Shown here piece by piece: positions 20,224-26,121 of a stretch of 64,000 nt of DNA (within the stretch, counting starts at the first letter, position 1; the number at the start of each line of letters is the position of its first letter). Source of the stretch: Mycobacterium branderi (GTDB taxonomy: Bacteria; Actinomycetota; Actinomycetes; Mycobacteriales; Mycobacteriaceae); assembly GCF_010728725.1 (NCBI RefSeq), contig NZ_AP022606.1:3782001-3846000 (forward strand). The letters run 5' to 3'. The notes beneath the pieces were generated by a model. That model had not been told where the DNA came from and did no database searches. It saw nothing but the letters and a program-made list of their open reading frames with translations. The position numbers and the translations under genes are program-made.

Positions 20224-21107
20224 CCTGGCCGTTTCGCGATCGCCTGGCCACCAACTCAGCACTCCCCGGAATCCCCGCTAATCCTGTAGACCTGTCCTCG
20301 TTCGCTGACTTCCTGCGTCGCCAGGCACCCGAGTTACTGCCGGTCGGGGGCGCCGGTAGCGCCGAACCCGCCGCCGGCAATCAGCTGCCCCATGGCACCA
20401 CGATCGTCGCGCTGAAGTACCCGGGCGGGGTCGTCATCGCCGGGGACCGGCGCTCGACGCAGGGCAACATGATTGCGGGCCGCGACGTGCAGAAGGTGTA
20501 CATCACCGACGACTACACCGCCACCGGCATCGCCGGCACCGCGGCCATTGCGGTCGAGTTCGCCCGGCTCTACGCGGTCGAACTCGAGCACTACGAAAAG
20601 CTGGAAGGCGTCCCGCTGACCTTCGCCGGCAAGGTCAACCGGCTGGCCATCATGGTGCGCGGCAACCTGGGCGCGGCCATGCAGGGCCTCGTGGCGCTGC
20701 CGCTGCTGGTGGGTTATGACCTCGACGATCCCGATCCGGAGAAAGCGGGCCGCATCGTGTCGTTCGACGCGGCCGGCGGCTGGAACCTCGAGGAGGAGGG
20801 CTACAAGTCCGTCGGCTCGGGGTCGATCTTCGCCAATTCGTCGATGAAGAAGCTGTATTCGCAGGTGACCGATGGCGATTCGGCGCTGCGGGTGGCCGTC
20901 GAGGCGCTCTACGACGCGGCCGACGACGACTCGGCCACCGGCGGCCCGGACCTGGTCCGCGGCATCTACCCGACCGCGGTCACCATCGGCGCCGACGGCG
21001 CGGCCGAGGTGCCGGAGCCGCGCATCGCCGAGCTGGCCCGCGAGGTCATCGAAAGCCGTTCTCGCGCAGACACTTTCGGTCCCGACGCCGAGCGGGGTGA
21101 CTCGTGA
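20220..21107 (+). CDS. prcB: 20S proteasome beta subunit
   Basis: PrcB forms the two inner, catalytic heptameric rings of the proteasome core. The 295-residue precursor has a propeptide of 59 residues, removed at Gly59 so that Thr60 (GTTIVAL) becomes the N-terminal nucleophile. Supporting active-site residues are in [20 protein letters not shown] (Asp and Lys) and the SGS motif near VGSGSIFA. The GTG at 20220 overlaps the pup stop. The prcA start overlaps its own stop by four bases, consistent with equal synthesis of the two subunits. Confidence 0.98.
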
Positions 21108-21859
21108 GCTTTCCGTACTTCATCTCGCCCGAGCAGGCGATGCGCGAACGCAGCGAGCTCGCGCGCAAGGGCATCGCCCGGGGTCGCAGCGTGGTGGCGC
21201 TGGCCTACGCCGGCGGCGTGCTGTTCGTCGCGGAGAACCCGTCGCGGTCGCTTCAGAAGATCAGCGAGCTCTACGACCGGGTTGGGTTCGCCGCCGCGGG
21301 CAAGTTCAACGAGTTCGACAACTTGCGCCGCGGCGGAATCCAATTCGCCGACACCCGCGGCTACGCCTACGACCGCCGCGACGTCACGGGCCGCCAGCTG
21401 GCCAACGTTTACGCGCAGACGCTGGGCACCATCTTCACCGAGCAGGCCAAGCCCTACGAGGTCGAGCTGTGCGTGGCCGAGGTCGCCCATTACGGCGAGA
21501 CCAAACCCCCTGAGCTGTATCGGATCACCTACGACGGGTCGATCAACGACGAGCCGCATTTCGTGGTGATGGGCGGCACCACGGAGCCGATCGCCAACGC
21601 GCTCAAGGACTCCTACGCCGAGAACGCCGACCTGGCCGACGCCGTGCGGATCGCGGTGAATGCGCTGCGGGCGGGCAGCAGCAACGGCGGCGACCAGCCC
21701 AGCCTCGGGGTGTCCATGCTGGAGGTGGCCATTTTGGACGCGAACCGGCCGCGGCGCGCGTTCCGCCGGATCACGGGGTCGGCGCTGGAGGCGCTGCTGC
21801 CCAAACCCGGTGCGTCCTCGGGCAAGTCGGGTTCGGGCAAGTCGAAGACGGACGGTTAG
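21104..21859 (+). CDS. prcA: 20S proteasome alpha subunit
   Basis: PrcA forms the outer gating rings of the core and binds Mpa tails. The 251 residues start [23 protein letters not shown], the N-terminal gate plus H0 helix, and continue with the Ntn-hydrolase fold without a catalytic Thr. [21 protein letters not shown] is typical of the family. The C-terminal tail after residue 232 is Gly/Ser/Lys-rich and probably disordered. It overlaps prcB by four bases. After it the locus departs from M. tuberculosis order. Confidence 0.98.
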
Positions 21860-21892
21860 TCGCCCGGCCGGATCTGCCTTGATGCGGCCGTG

Positions 21893-21921
21893 TTGCCGGA
21901 ACTGACAATCGCGGCTATCCT
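21893..21921 (+). promoter_or_regulatory. Candidate promoter of the M-box/cpsY transcript
   Basis: TTGCCG at 21893-21898 and TATCCT at 21916-21921 are spaced 17 bases apart. The predicted start near 21928 falls exactly where the M-box closing stem begins, which supports both calls. Confidence 0.6.
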
Positions 21922-21928
21922 GCTGCAG

Positions 21929-22034
21929 CACCTCGTTAGGCGAGGCTTCTGGATGAACACAGGCCACTGATCTGACGACGTCGAGAGACGCCCAAGATCA
22001 GGACAGATCTCCCCGGCTTAAGGGGTGATCCCAA
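21929..22034 (+). promoter_or_regulatory. M-box (ykoK) magnesium riboswitch
   Basis: The conserved M-box strings are present in order: GTTAGGCGAGGCTTCTGGATG at its 5' side (split at 21935-21955), GACGTCGAGAGACGCCCAAGATC in the middle, and CCGGCTTAAGGGGTGATCCC at the 3' side (to 22032). The closing stem pairs CACCTC 21929-21934 with GGGGTG 22022-22027. M-boxes sense Mg2+ and usually switch off Mg transport genes when Mg2+ is plentiful. Here the 3' strand of the closing stem contains AAGGGG, a good ribosome-binding site 9 bases before a GTG at 22035, so Mg2+-bound RNA would hide that site. No Mg transporter follows; the next real gene is cpsY. Confidence 0.9.
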
Positions 22035-22259
22035 GTGGCTTCCCGGGTTTCCGCGGATACGTCGTCCAGTGCCAAAGCTCAACGTGTGAGGGCATTGTCG
22101 CCGCTCCACCGCCTGCGCGGGATCCCTCTTTGTGCGCGTCGTGACCGACATCGAGCGTGGAAGGCAGGTGTTTCCCATGACCAGCATGATCGACGTCCCC
22201 CGGACCGGGTTGGCCGGATCAGTCAGCTCAGCCGATGGGCTGCGCCTGACCCCGTATGA
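22035..22259 (+). CDS. Possible leader ORF after the M-box, 74 aa
   Basis: GTG 22035 has the best-placed ribosome-binding site in this leader (AAGGGG at 22020-22025). The frame runs 74 codons, is Arg-rich, resembles no family, and overlaps the start of cpsY in another frame. It may be a regulatory leader peptide whose translation links Mg2+ sensing to cpsY. It could also be a chance frame in GC-rich DNA. Confidence 0.3.
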   Translation: MASRVSADTSSSAKAQRVRALSPLHRLRGIPLCARRDRHRAWKAGVSHDQHDRRPPDRVGRISQLSRWAAPDPV

Positions 22260-23694
22260 GGCGATGGTGGCGGACCTGTTGTTCGTCAGCGGCGAGCTGG
22301 AGATGGCGGGCATCCCGTTCCTGCTGATCCGCGGCGCCGACGGCCGCCCTGCGCTCATCGTGGACATCGCGCTGCGCGCACGGGTGGCCGAGGCTCTGAT
22401 GGCCGCATGCCTGGAAGCCCCGTTGCGCGCCAAGATCTTCGACGGAACGGGACGCCGGTCGGTGGACCTCGCCGACAGTCTGCTCTCGACGGACCCCGAC
22501 CCGCGGTTGCTGCGGGTATTCCGGCAGCGTCAATGTCCGCGTTCCGGCGTGCGCTACGGCGCCTCGGCAGGAGTGGAGCTGCAGTTCTGGGTGTTCGACG
22601 GCCAGCAAGCGATCTGTCCGATCGAGAACTCGTTGACCCGGAAGGCGCTGCCGCTCAGCGACGTTGAGTACACGAGCGTCGAATTGCACGGCCGCACCTG
22701 GTCGACGATCGACGGGATGTTCACGCCGCACGCCGGCGACATCACTTTCGACATCGACATGGTGTTCTCCTGGGTGGACGGCAACGACCCGGAGTTCCGT
22801 TCCCGCCGCGCAGCGGCGATGGCCAATCATGTTGTGGGCGAAGGTGATGACGCCGACGCGCGGATCCGTCAGATCGACGAGCTCAAGTACGCGCTGCGGT
22901 CGGTGCACGCCTTCGCGCCCTGGGTGCGACGGATCTTCATCGCCACCGACTCGCGGGTGCCGGAATGGCTTGCGCCGCACCCGAAGATCACCATCGTGCG
23001 CGCCGAGGAGCACTTCACCGACCTGTCGGCGCTACCGGTGTACAACAGCCACGCGGTCGAGACCCAGCTGCACCACATCCCCGGCCTGGCAGAGCATTTC
23101 CTGTACTCCAACGACGACATGTTCTTCGGCCGGCCGCTCTCGCCGACCATGTTCTTCTCGCCCGGCGGGGTGACGAAGTTCATCGAGGCGGGCACCCGGA
23201 TCGGACTCGGGGTCAACCACCCGGAGCGCAGTGGCTTCGAGAACGCCGCCCGAGTGAACCGGCAGCTGCTGTGGGAAAAGTTCGGGAAGATCATCACCCG
23301 TCACCTGGAGCACACCGCCGCTCCGCTGCGCAAAAGTGTGCTGGCCGAACTGGAGCGAGAGTTCGCGGAGGACTTCGCCCGCACGCAGGCGAGCCGCTTT
23401 CGGTCGAGCACCGACATCTCGGTGACCAACTCGCTGTACCACTACTACTCGCTGCTGACCGGGCGCGCCGTACAAAACGAATCGGCGAAGGTGCTCTACG
23501 TGGACACCACGCTGCGGTCGGGGTTGGCGAAACTCCCGAAGCTGCTCAAGAAACGCAAGTTCGACTTCTTCTGCCTCAACGACGGCAGCTTCCCGGAGGT
23601 GAGCGCCGACGAACGGGCTCGGCTGGTCGGGGAATTCCTGGAGAGCTACTTCCCGGTCCCGGCGCCATGGGAACAGGTGGCCGGCGAGGAATGA
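22177..23694 (+). CDS. cpsY: Stealth-family polysaccharide phosphotransferase CpsY
   Basis: Stealth proteins transfer hexose-1-phosphates to build capsule-like polysaccharides. The four conserved regions are seen: CR1 DIDMVFSWVDGNDPEFR near residue 192, CR2 LKYALRSVHAFAPWVRRIFIATD, CR3 YNSHAVETQLHHIPGLAEHF followed by YSNDDMFFGRPL, and CR4 toward the C terminus (FCLNDG). The first 185 residues form a separate mixed domain. M. tuberculosis Rv0806c (CpsY) is the likely counterpart, and its neighbour there, Rv0805, is also adjacent here. ATG 22177 has AGG 8 bases upstream; GTG 22132 is an in-frame alternative. The gene lies under an M-box, which is unexpected for this family. Confidence 0.9.
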   Translation: MTSMIDVPRTGLAGSVSSADGLRLTPYEAMVADLLFVSGELEMAGIPFLLIRGADGRPALIVDIALRARVAEALMAACLEAPLRAKIFDGTGRRSVDLADSLLSTDPDPRLLRVFRQRQCPRSGVRYGASAGVELQFWVFDGQQAICPIENSLTRKALPLSDVEYTSVELHGRTWSTIDGMFTPHAGDITFDIDMVFSWVDGNDPEFRSRRAAAMANHVVGEGDDADARIRQIDELKYALRSVHAFAPWVRRIFIATDSRVPEWLAPHPKITIVRAEEHFTDLSALPVYNSHAVETQLHHIPGLAEHFLYSNDDMFFGRPLSPTMFFSPGGVTKFIEAGTRIGLGVNHPERSGFENAARVNRQLLWEKFGKIITRHLEHTAAPLRKSVLAELEREFAEDFARTQASRFRSSTDISVTNSLYHYYSLLTGRAVQNESAKVLYVDTTLRSGLAKLPKLLKKRKFDFFCLNDGSFPEVSADERARLVGEFLESYFPVPAPWEQVAGEE

Positions 23695-23696
23695 CG

Positions 23697-24617
23697 CTAT
23701 CGTCGCGCGAATTGCGGCGCGAGACGCGGAATGCGGGCTGCCGGAAGGATGCTCGTCCGGGCATCGGCGAGTTCGCGCTGCACGGCGTCGGGCGCGACGA
23801 ACCGGCCGACAGTGGGGCCGGCCGCCAGCGGCACGACGGTGTGAACCACGGTGTCGGGGTAGCAGTGCACCAGGTTGAACGCCTGCGCAGCATCGCGACC
23901 CCGGGTGCCGGCAGTCAGCAGGTCTTGGGTGTAGCAGCTGGCCGAGGCCACCGACACCGGAATGCCGGCGAACGTGGCCGTGGTCGAGTAGTGCAGGTGG
24001 CCGGCCAGGATGCTGCGGACGTCGGTGCCGCGCAGAACCTCGCCCAGCGGGGTTTGGTCGCGCAACTCCACCATCACGGCGAGATCCTGGACGCTGGGAA
24101 TCGGCGGGTGATGCATTGCCAGGATGGTGCCGAACGGCGCGGGCTCGGCGAGCTGCTCGGACAGCCACCGCAGCTGCTGCGGTGCGATTTCGCCGTGATG
24201 GCAGCCGGGCACCGAGGTATCCAACACGATGACTCGCAGACCGGCGATGTGGTGCACCCGATCCATCGGCGCCATCGTCGGCGCCTCACGCAGCAGGTGC
24301 TGCCGTAGTGCCGCCCGGTTGTCGTGGTTGCCCATCACCCAGATGACTTGAGCCTCAAGACGATCCGCCAACGGTTCGACCAATTCGCCCAGCTTGCGGT
24401 ATGCATCGGGCTGGCCGGTGTCGGCGAGGTCGCCGGTGAAGATCAACGCGTCGGGGCGGGTTTGCGACTCCTCGAGCCGGTCGAGCAGCTCCGATAATCG
24501 GGCGTCTGCGTCGACATCTCCGTAGAGGTCGTCGCCGCCGGCGACTAGATGGGTGTCACTGATGTGTGCGATGACATGATCCGGCCGCGGGTGCTCCGCG
24601 ACCCTGGGTCTGTCCAC
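23697..24617 (-). CDS. cpdA: Class III cyclic nucleotide phosphodiesterase (Rv0805-like)
   Basis: A 306-residue calcineurin-like metallophosphoesterase that hydrolyses cAMP in the M. tuberculosis homologue. The two-metal site is complete: Asp21 and His23 in ISDTHL, Asp63 in TGDLAD, Asn97-His98 in MGNHD, a His in MHHPPIPS and GHLHYS near the end. With GTG 24617 the residue numbers coincide with Rv0805, which decides the start; the longer frame to 24812 is rejected. The last 30 residues differ from Rv0805. It converges on cpsY with two bases between stops, as in the Rv0805/Rv0806c pair. Confidence 0.95.
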
Positions 24618-24750
24618 AGGACTCCAAAGACCTCTCTGACGACGGTGCTCGCGAGGACGAGCAGCACCCGACTTTACCGGAGCGGCTCGCCGGGCACGCT
24701 GATCTCGATGCCACAAGCGCGCCTCCCGCCCCCGCATGGCGGGATACCAG

Positions 24751-24756
24751 TACGCT
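24751..24756 (+). promoter_or_regulatory. -10 for leaderless pafA (TACGCT)
   Basis: TACGCT is 6 bases before the pafA GTG with no ribosome-binding site, predicting a leaderless mRNA. The 145 bases between cpdA and pafA are the only room for both divergent promoters. Confidence 0.6.
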
Positions 24757-24762
24757 CGAATC

Positions 24763-26121
24763 GTGCAGCGGCGAATCATGGGCATCGAGACCGAGTTCGG
24801 TGTCACCTGCACGTTTCACGGCCATCGCCGCCTGAGCCCCGACGAGGTCGCGCGCTACCTGTTCCGCCGGGTGGTGTCGTGGGGCCGCAGCTCGAACGTC
24901 TTCCTGCGCAACGGCGCGCGGCTGTACCTGGACGTGGGCAGCCACCCCGAATACGCCACCGCCGAATGCGACAGCCTGGTGCAGCTGGTCACCCACGACC
25001 GCGCCGGGGAACGGGTGCTGGAGGACCTGCTGGTCGACGCCGAGCAGCGGCTCGCCGACGAGGGCATCGGCGGCGACATCTACCTGTTCAAGAACAACAC
25101 CGATTCGGCCGGCAACTCCTACGGCTGCCACGAGAATTACTTGATCGTGCGGGCCGGCGAGTTCTCCCGGATCTCCGACGTGCTGCTGCCCTTCCTGGTC
25201 ACCCGTCAGCTGATCTGCGGGGCCGGCAAGGTGCTGCAAACCCCGAAAGCGGCCACGTTCTGCCTCTCCCAACGCGCCGAGCACATCTGGGAGGGCGTCT
25301 CCAGCGCCACCACACGGTCACGCCCGATCATCAACACCCGCGACGAGCCGCACGCCGACGCCGAAAAATACCGGCGCCTGCACGTCATCGTCGGCGACTC
25401 CAACATGTGCGAGACCACCACCATGCTCAAGGTGGGCACCGCGGCGCTGGTGCTGGAGATGATCGAAGCCGGGGTGGCGTTCCGCGACTTCTCGCTGGAC
25501 AACCCGATCCGGGCCATCCGCGAGGTCAGCCACGACATCACCGGCCGTCGCCCGGTGCGGCTGGCCGGCGGGCGGCAGGCCAGCGCGCTGGACATCCAGC
25601 GCGAGTACTACGCCCGCGCCGTCGAGCACCTGCAGACCCGCGAGCCCAACGCGCAGATCGAGCAGGTCGTCGACCTGTGGGGCCGTCAGCTCGACGCCGT
25701 CGAGAGCCAGGACTTCGCCAAGGTCGACACCGAGATCGACTGGGTGATCAAGCGCAAGCTGTTCCAGCGCTACCAGGACCGCTACGACATGGAGCTGTCC
25801 GACCCCAAGATCGCGCAACTCGACCTTGCCTATCACGACATCAAGCGCGGCCGCGGCGTGTTCGATCTGCTGCAGCGCAAGGGCCTGGCGGCCCGGATCA
25901 CCACCGACGAGGAAATCGAGGACGCCGTCGACCAGCCGCCGCAGACCACCCGGGCCCGGCTGCGCGGCGAATTCATCAGCGCCGCACAGGCCGCCGGCCG
26001 TGACTTCACCGTCGACTGGGTGCACCTCAAACTCAACGACCAGGCCCAGCGCACCGTGCTGTGCAAAGACCCGTTCCGGTCGGTCGACGAGCGGGTCAAA
26101 CGGCTGATCGCCAGCATGTAA
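24763..26121 (+). CDS. pafA: Pup-protein ligase
   Basis: PafA phosphorylates the C-terminal Glu of Pup and joins it to substrate lysines. The 452 residues equal the M. tuberculosis enzyme in length. Active-site residues seen: Glu9 and Glu11 in GIETEFG and Asp57 in [29 protein letters not shown] and the [11 protein letters not shown] segment complete the ATP site. The C-terminal helical domain that contacts Pup ends RVKRLIASM. The Dop-specific loop is absent. GTG 24763 gives the [12 protein letters not shown] start; an ATG at 24736 is rejected because the -10 element would lie inside the gene. Confidence 0.98.

Follow-up and report, generated by a model that had tools for sequence, protein, structure and literature searches.

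Organization of the locus

The window, that is, the whole 64 kb stretch of DNA that was analysed, carries an M-box of the RF00380 (ykoK leader) family directly upstream of a single gene of the Stealth family. The following features were recognized (coordinates of the window):

21104..21859, + strand: prcA-like proteasome subunit gene (PF00227), upstream neighbour, outside the Stealth unit
21893..21898, + strand: -35-like hexamer TTGCCG, present in 10/10 mycobacterial leaders (window included); TTGCGC in Segniliparus rugosus
21916..21921, + strand: -10-like hexamer TATCCT, of the form TAnCnT in 11/11 leaders; putative transcription start at ~21927
21925..22097, + strand: M-box (RF00380) aptamer, 142.4 bits; 140/173 columns invariant, 92.9% of 506 pair cells paired
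21931..21936, + strand: P1 5' strand (CCTCGT); 21931-21934 pair with 22088-22091 and 21935-21936 with 22082-22083
22084..22092, + strand: P1 3' strand, SD1-like GTGTGAGGG, candidate anti-anti-SD; pairs with the P1 5' strand or with 22124-22128
22124..22135, + strand: candidate anti-SD CCCTCTTTGTGC; CCCTCT invariant in 10/10
22159..22170, + strand: Shine-Dalgarno region GGAAGGCAGGTG of the Stealth gene; 21/27 columns invariant over 22156-22182 (10 mycobacterial leaders)
22177..23694, + strand: gene for a Stealth-family (CpsY-like) sugar-1-phosphate transferase of 505 aa, Pfam Stealth CR1-CR4
23697..24812, - strand: convergent metallophosphoesterase ORF (longest frame), PF00149; ends the Stealth transcription unit

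When the whole window was searched with cmscan, the M-box was matched at 21925-22097 (+) with 142.4 bits (E 3.7e-32) against a gathering cut-off of 44, the alignment spanning positions 1-169 of the 169 of the model, and it was the sole match above any gathering score. The earlier note on this DNA had placed an M-box upstream of a Stealth gene and had proposed a scan with RF00380 as a check; the element was recovered at full length and in that position. It resembles the ykoK leader in its full-length aptamer with the helices kept, but differs in that it precedes a lone Stealth phosphotransferase gene and not a Mg2+ transporter.

The open reading frame starting with ATG at 22177, 79 nt after the aptamer, scored above the cut-off with all four Pfam Stealth models (CR1, CR2, CR3 and CR4), and ATGAC was found at the start codon in the ten mycobacterial leaders. 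The gene lies between prcA and pafA in 10/10 mycobacterial members of its clade, window included. Since the next gene, the metallophosphoesterase ORF that we take to be Rv0805-like, is convergent, no target of the M-box other than the Stealth gene is evident, and the transcript should carry this gene alone, as a monocistronic mRNA. Of 24 actinobacterial loci examined, cpsY-type loci among them, 21 have a convergent metallophosphoesterase homologue next to the Stealth gene; as the two are found together in these loci, they may have moved as a unit.

The nearest solved structure to the window protein is that of CpsY of Mycobacterium tuberculosis (8J2N). The accessible text of PMC10668966 links residues E305, N322, D324 and R419 of CpsY to substrate, Mg2+ and activity; all four are identical in the window protein in an alignment in which chain position 1 of 8J2N was taken as residue 201. 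CpsY requires Mg2+ or Mn2+ (PMC10668966). Comparison of the window gene with six relatives gave dN/dS values of 0.08-0.13 at dS 0.29-0.74, from which the gene is judged to be under purifying selection.

The two promoter-like hexamers are separated by a spacer of 17 nt, and the M-box begins 4 bases past the last base of TATCCT, so that transcription would start at about 21927, at the 5' end of the aptamer. This pair had been described previously as a promoter. The letters are as described and the hexamers are conserved, but a strict sigma-70 scan did not report the pair, which has 8 of 12 matches by hand count where the scan needs 9.

Conservation of the aptamer

Across the ten mycobacterial leaders 140 of the 173 aptamer columns were invariant. 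The mean frequency of the major letter was 0.95 in the aptamer, 0.65 in the spacer upstream, 0.74 in the 27 bases after the aptamer and 0.82 at the start of the coding region. In the set of 11 sequences, 92.9% of 506 pair cells were paired, versus 31-45% in slid controls. Two-sided changes were detected in 4 of 46 aptamer pairs; shuffling gave a mean of 1.3, and 2 of 500 shuffles reached the observed number. Further pair types were no more numerous than in shuffles (11 versus 11.1). The helices are conserved with compensatory changes, as is characteristic of an M-box. Of the P1 pairs of the model, the two outermost are absent from all 11 sequences, and a P3-side pair (columns 29/145) forms in two of them.

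Phylogenetic position of the Stealth gene and association with the M-box

Matches to the Stealth gene were obtained in 48 of 396 Mycobacterium genomes. Ten of the 396 carry a gene 84-100% identical to that of the window, and most other full-length matches in the genus are 67-70% identical; two genomes (G060 and G147) carry both the window-type and the cpsY-type gene. In the protein tree (52 rows, 46 distinct sequences, with 6 repeats), the M-box-bearing Stealth genes and the gene of a second genome of the genus Segniliparus grouped together with support 100, and their clade is the sister of the cpsY type. The window gene shares neither the clade nor the locus of the cpsY-type genes, and by this sequence comparison it is CpsY-like but not an orthologue of Rv0806c. 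It belongs to the same family as CpsY (Rv0806c, 8J2N), keeps the four residues mentioned above and has the convergent metallophosphoesterase partner, but differs in its membership of the sister clade (~65-70% identity), in its place at prcA-pafA and in the M-box upstream. The earlier identification of the next gene as cpsY holds in so far as the next gene on the strand is a Stealth gene with CR1-CR4, but this gene is from the sister clade of cpsY and occupies another locus.

An M-box was present directly upstream in 10/10 Mycobacterium genomes with a window-type Stealth gene: five of a first sample, then M. kyorinense and MAG Bu41, then three new loci. Among the later loci Mycobacterium sp. 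SM1 and MAG CP_BE_BS_38 were repeats of genomes of the first sample, and the last set held two repeats. The Stealth gene of S. rugosus also has an M-box upstream, the only one found in that genome, and no prc, dop or paf gene was detected in the 18 kb examined around it. Because this pairing stands at a locus without prc, dop and paf in those 18 kb, the M-box is tied to the gene and not to its location, and the view of the M-box as a part of the prc-paf locus was ruled out. It had been stated beforehand that an element present only in this genome would speak against the proposal; its presence in the ten clade genomes of Mycobacterium and in S. rugosus is the opposite of that.

No M-box was found at the Stealth gene of the second Segniliparus-genus genome, probably S. 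rotundus, where ~1.35 kb of the S. rugosus sequence, aptamer included, corresponds to ~70 bases (L159 5770-7123 versus L160 7641-7770). This genome keeps the 3' leader and the ribosome site of its Stealth gene, and loss of the M-box would be the simpler reading of the alignment. As it does without the element, control by the M-box is not indispensable. Short direct repeats were observed 3' of the S. rugosus Stealth gene (L159 8868-9055), and they match the end of the Stealth region of the second genome too.

The earlier note had also raised the question of whether cpsY orthologues keep the M-box. It was present in none of 30 cpsY-type Mycobacterium loci, each with ~1.5 kb upstream, and three further Mycobacterium Stealth genes with 53-55% identity were also without it. 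This count of 30 excludes the second G147 copy and the G312 locus, with too little sequence upstream (152 and 218 bases, respectively), G074, in which the reading frame is broken (a scan of its locus, L037, gave no match), the second G378 copy and a third G147 fragment, which are at contig edges and unscanned, and the weak fragments of G102, G275, G282 and G347. Rfam was used for 12 of 80 named loci. A nucleotide profile, which recovered the M-box in 20/20 loci outside its training set (L161-L180), found none in the 75 loci L045-L119 (L048 has only 221 bases upstream). By the same kind of profile no M-box was found at the cpsY-type locus of M. leprae (L051), the two M-boxes of that genome being elsewhere.

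Since the element is a real M-box, follows a conserved promoter-like pair and is kept in the ten Mycobacterium genomes and in S. rugosus, control of the window-type Stealth gene by Mg2+ is likely on comparative sequence grounds.

Comparison with other M-boxes

The source genome holds six M-boxes. Three precede pe/ppe genes, the PE and PPE families being confirmed for the first of them, and two (one of them upstream of an ileS-like tRNA synthetase gene) precede short genes without a Pfam match that are presumably Rv1535-like. The three M-boxes at pe/ppe genes lie on one strand within 8.7 kb (G000:C1:4115026-4123667, L007), and MgtE_N/CBS and Nramp genes are located in the same stretch.

Stealth M-boxes are 85-94% identical among themselves, whereas that of the window shares 70-73% identity with the other five in its genome; on these values, recent copying of one of those five was ruled out as its origin. 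In a tree of 56 M-box rows, the 11 of the stealth type were set apart with support 100. Their leaders differ as well: the uORF2 site GA[AG]GAGGTGA (GAGGAGGTGA-type), by which the pe20/rv1535 type is recognized, was found in the 200 nt that follow the M-box in 17 of 23 non-stealth cases (L127, too short, is not in this count) and in 0/11 stealth leaders. The closest non-stealth M-box in the set, L176, from another genus of Mycobacteriaceae, is 83% identical and precedes an MgtC-family gene (PF02308). Such mgtC-linked M-boxes of other Mycobacteriaceae genera differ in their target gene, and L176 could represent a possible source of the stealth aptamer. Divergent M-box pairs ~0.3-0.6 kb apart in one intergenic region were observed at L171 and L174, and also in G060 and G476.

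Mycobacterial M-boxes of nine species have been sorted as pe20, Mn2+, rv1535 and mgtE types (PMC12810186). M. kyorinense is not one of the nine species in the accessible text of that study, which notes "various transferases" behind rv1535-type elements; neither stealth nor cpsY appears as a word in the main text. For M. avium, PMC3774663 lists one M-box each upstream of a PE gene, a hypothetical gene and a manganese/iron transporter, three in all, and the accessible part of the regulon survey PMC3766115 makes no mention of Stealth. In the accessible open-licence literature no paper was found that links an M-box with a Stealth gene. The riboswitch class is known; as far as searched, the novelty lies in its target here, in the type of leader and in its being inherited together with a surface enzyme.

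Proposed switch mechanism

In P1, CCUC (21931-21934) pairs with GAGG (22088-22091). The SD1 element is GAGGG in nine of the ten mycobacterial leaders and GGGGG in the other one. Some thirty bases past P1, CCCUCU is invariant in 10/10, and the sequence that precedes it (22098-22124) is variable, with 4 of 27 columns invariant. In the consensus fold of the post-aptamer region the GAGGG:CCCUC pairing was kept in all ten, one G-U included, and for four pairs higher in this anti-P1 hairpin one or more sequences had both sides changed; the covariation term of the fold was slightly unfavourable (+0.37), and apical pairs were broken in 1-3 of the ten. P1 and the anti-P1 hairpin are mutually exclusive, and the alternative is conserved. 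CCTCTTTGTGC also follows another M-box of the source genome (L005), and GAAAGCAGGTG occupies the Shine-Dalgarno position in S. rugosus.

Single-sequence folds of the 11 leaders, with and without the P1 3' strand, showed no consistent change in accessibility of the ribosome site. In ten leaders the pairing of the anti-SD with SD2 was no stronger than that of shuffled anti-SD letters (0.37-0.85 of the shuffles as good), nor was that with SD1 (0.26-0.68 as good). As folds and duplex energies gave no consistent masking, the masking of the ribosome site by the anti-SD is proposed from conservation and by analogy with M. tuberculosis. There, the pe20 M-box has been described with an SD1/anti-SD/SD2 platform and Rho, supported with reporters, and strong control of pe20 by Mg2+ through its leader is documented in work cited in the same paper (PMC12810186). 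The stealth leaders share with the pe20 (rv1806) and rv1535 M-boxes an SD1-like element in the 3' strand of P1 and, further downstream, a pyrimidine-rich candidate anti-SD (PMC12810186), but they are without the uORF2 site and, in the window, only 79 nt separate the aptamer from the start codon.

The M-box is most probably (roughly three chances in four) the functional Mg2+-sensing leader of one Stealth phosphotransferase gene, acting as a translational, possibly Rho-coupled OFF switch. According to this model, the monocistronic Stealth mRNA would start at the 5' end of the aptamer, which would bind Mg2+. With ample Mg2+ the aptamer would close P1 and lock GAGGG (SD1), leaving CCCUCU free either to mask the ribosome site or to make a C-rich stretch accessible to Rho; in both cases the gene would be off. 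At low Mg2+, P1 would open, the anti-P1 hairpin GAGGG:CCCUC would form and the ribosome site would be free; the Stealth enzyme would then be made and the envelope polysaccharide changed. The sign of the response, OFF at high Mg2+, is taken from the M-boxes of ykoK in B. subtilis and of pe20 in M. tuberculosis, both of which are repressed at high Mg2+ (PMC12810186).

The conserved GAGGG:CCCUC pairing also allows the opposite sign. Followed by UUUGU, it would be an intrinsic terminator when P1 opens, and high Mg2+ would permit synthesis of a Mg2+-dependent enzyme; UUUG does come next in some species, and the requirement of CpsY for Mg2+ or Mn2+ (PMC10668966) would suit such an ON switch. However, only a short run of U is present, and it is not conserved (CUGUGUGC in 3/10), no terminator-like site was found in 21860-22250, and the ykoK and pe20 precedents are repressed at high Mg2+ (PMC12810186), which makes this reading unlikely. 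A divalent metal other than Mg2+, for example Mn2+, is quite improbable as the main signal for the aptamer in these cells. In its favour, work cited in PMC12810186 has the rv1535 M-box associating with further divalent ions, and CpsY uses Mn2+ as well as Mg2+ (PMC10668966); against it, PMC12810186 also cites strong regulation of pe20 by Mg2+ via its leader.

A relic of an older gene arrangement, by which the Stealth gene is no longer controlled, might be suspected from the one Segniliparus-genus genome without an M-box. Yet 140 of 173 aptamer columns are invariant in the ten mycobacterial genomes despite a dS of 0.29-0.74 for the gene (six compared), paired changes are kept in the aptamer, the promoter-like pair, anti-SD and SD are conserved too, and the same pairing of M-box and Stealth gene is met at two unrelated loci. 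The relic explanation was rejected on this conservation, being very improbable.

Possible physiological meaning

An M-box that precedes a surface-polysaccharide gene, in a pair kept by relatives, suggests that the cells adjust their coat to the magnesium supply. In its full form the OFF-switch reading would be that a separate M-box class, co-inherited with its gene across two genera, drives the formation of a phosphate-bearing envelope polysaccharide at low Mg2+, the anionic polymer gathering Mg2+ at the surface, so that homeostasis would be achieved by remodelling of the coat and not by transport. This is a tentative proposal that we consider possible but rather doubtful; within it, both the effect of the Stealth enzyme on the cell surface and the Mg2+-binding role of the polymer are presumed.

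Envelope polysaccharide phosphotransfer is hereby added to the processes that an M-box may control. The locus offers a clean test case, with a single-gene transcript and no transporter or PE/PPE genes behind the riboswitch, and a starting point for learning what a Stealth protein does in the physiology of a bacterium; Mg2+ control would tie the sensing of this ion directly to mycobacterial surface chemistry. The data also suggest that the sampling of nine species and four M-box types, as given in the accessible text of PMC12810186, is incomplete.

Occurrence in other genomes, plasmids and phages

At the family level 107 of 301 genomes matched the protein, and an M-box just upstream was found only in the window and in S. 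rugosus when the lists were compared by eye. At the class level the protein was matched at E 1e-80 or better in 21 of 246 genomes, with the pairing only in the window; these large RNA scans of family and class were run with stricter filters, by which weak matches are lost. Phages gave no match to the aptamer. The protein was matched by 50 plasmid records, one of which (62%) was checked with the nucleotide profile and showed no M-box. The aptamer was matched by 11 plasmid records; among the four inspected, two are unannotated at that place and two have metal-related and hypothetical genes, with no Stealth gene listed. A record of 4.9 Mb filed as an Aeromonas caviae plasmid (L181, NZ_AP026896.1), possibly mislabelled, carries an M-box 84.5% identical to that of the window.
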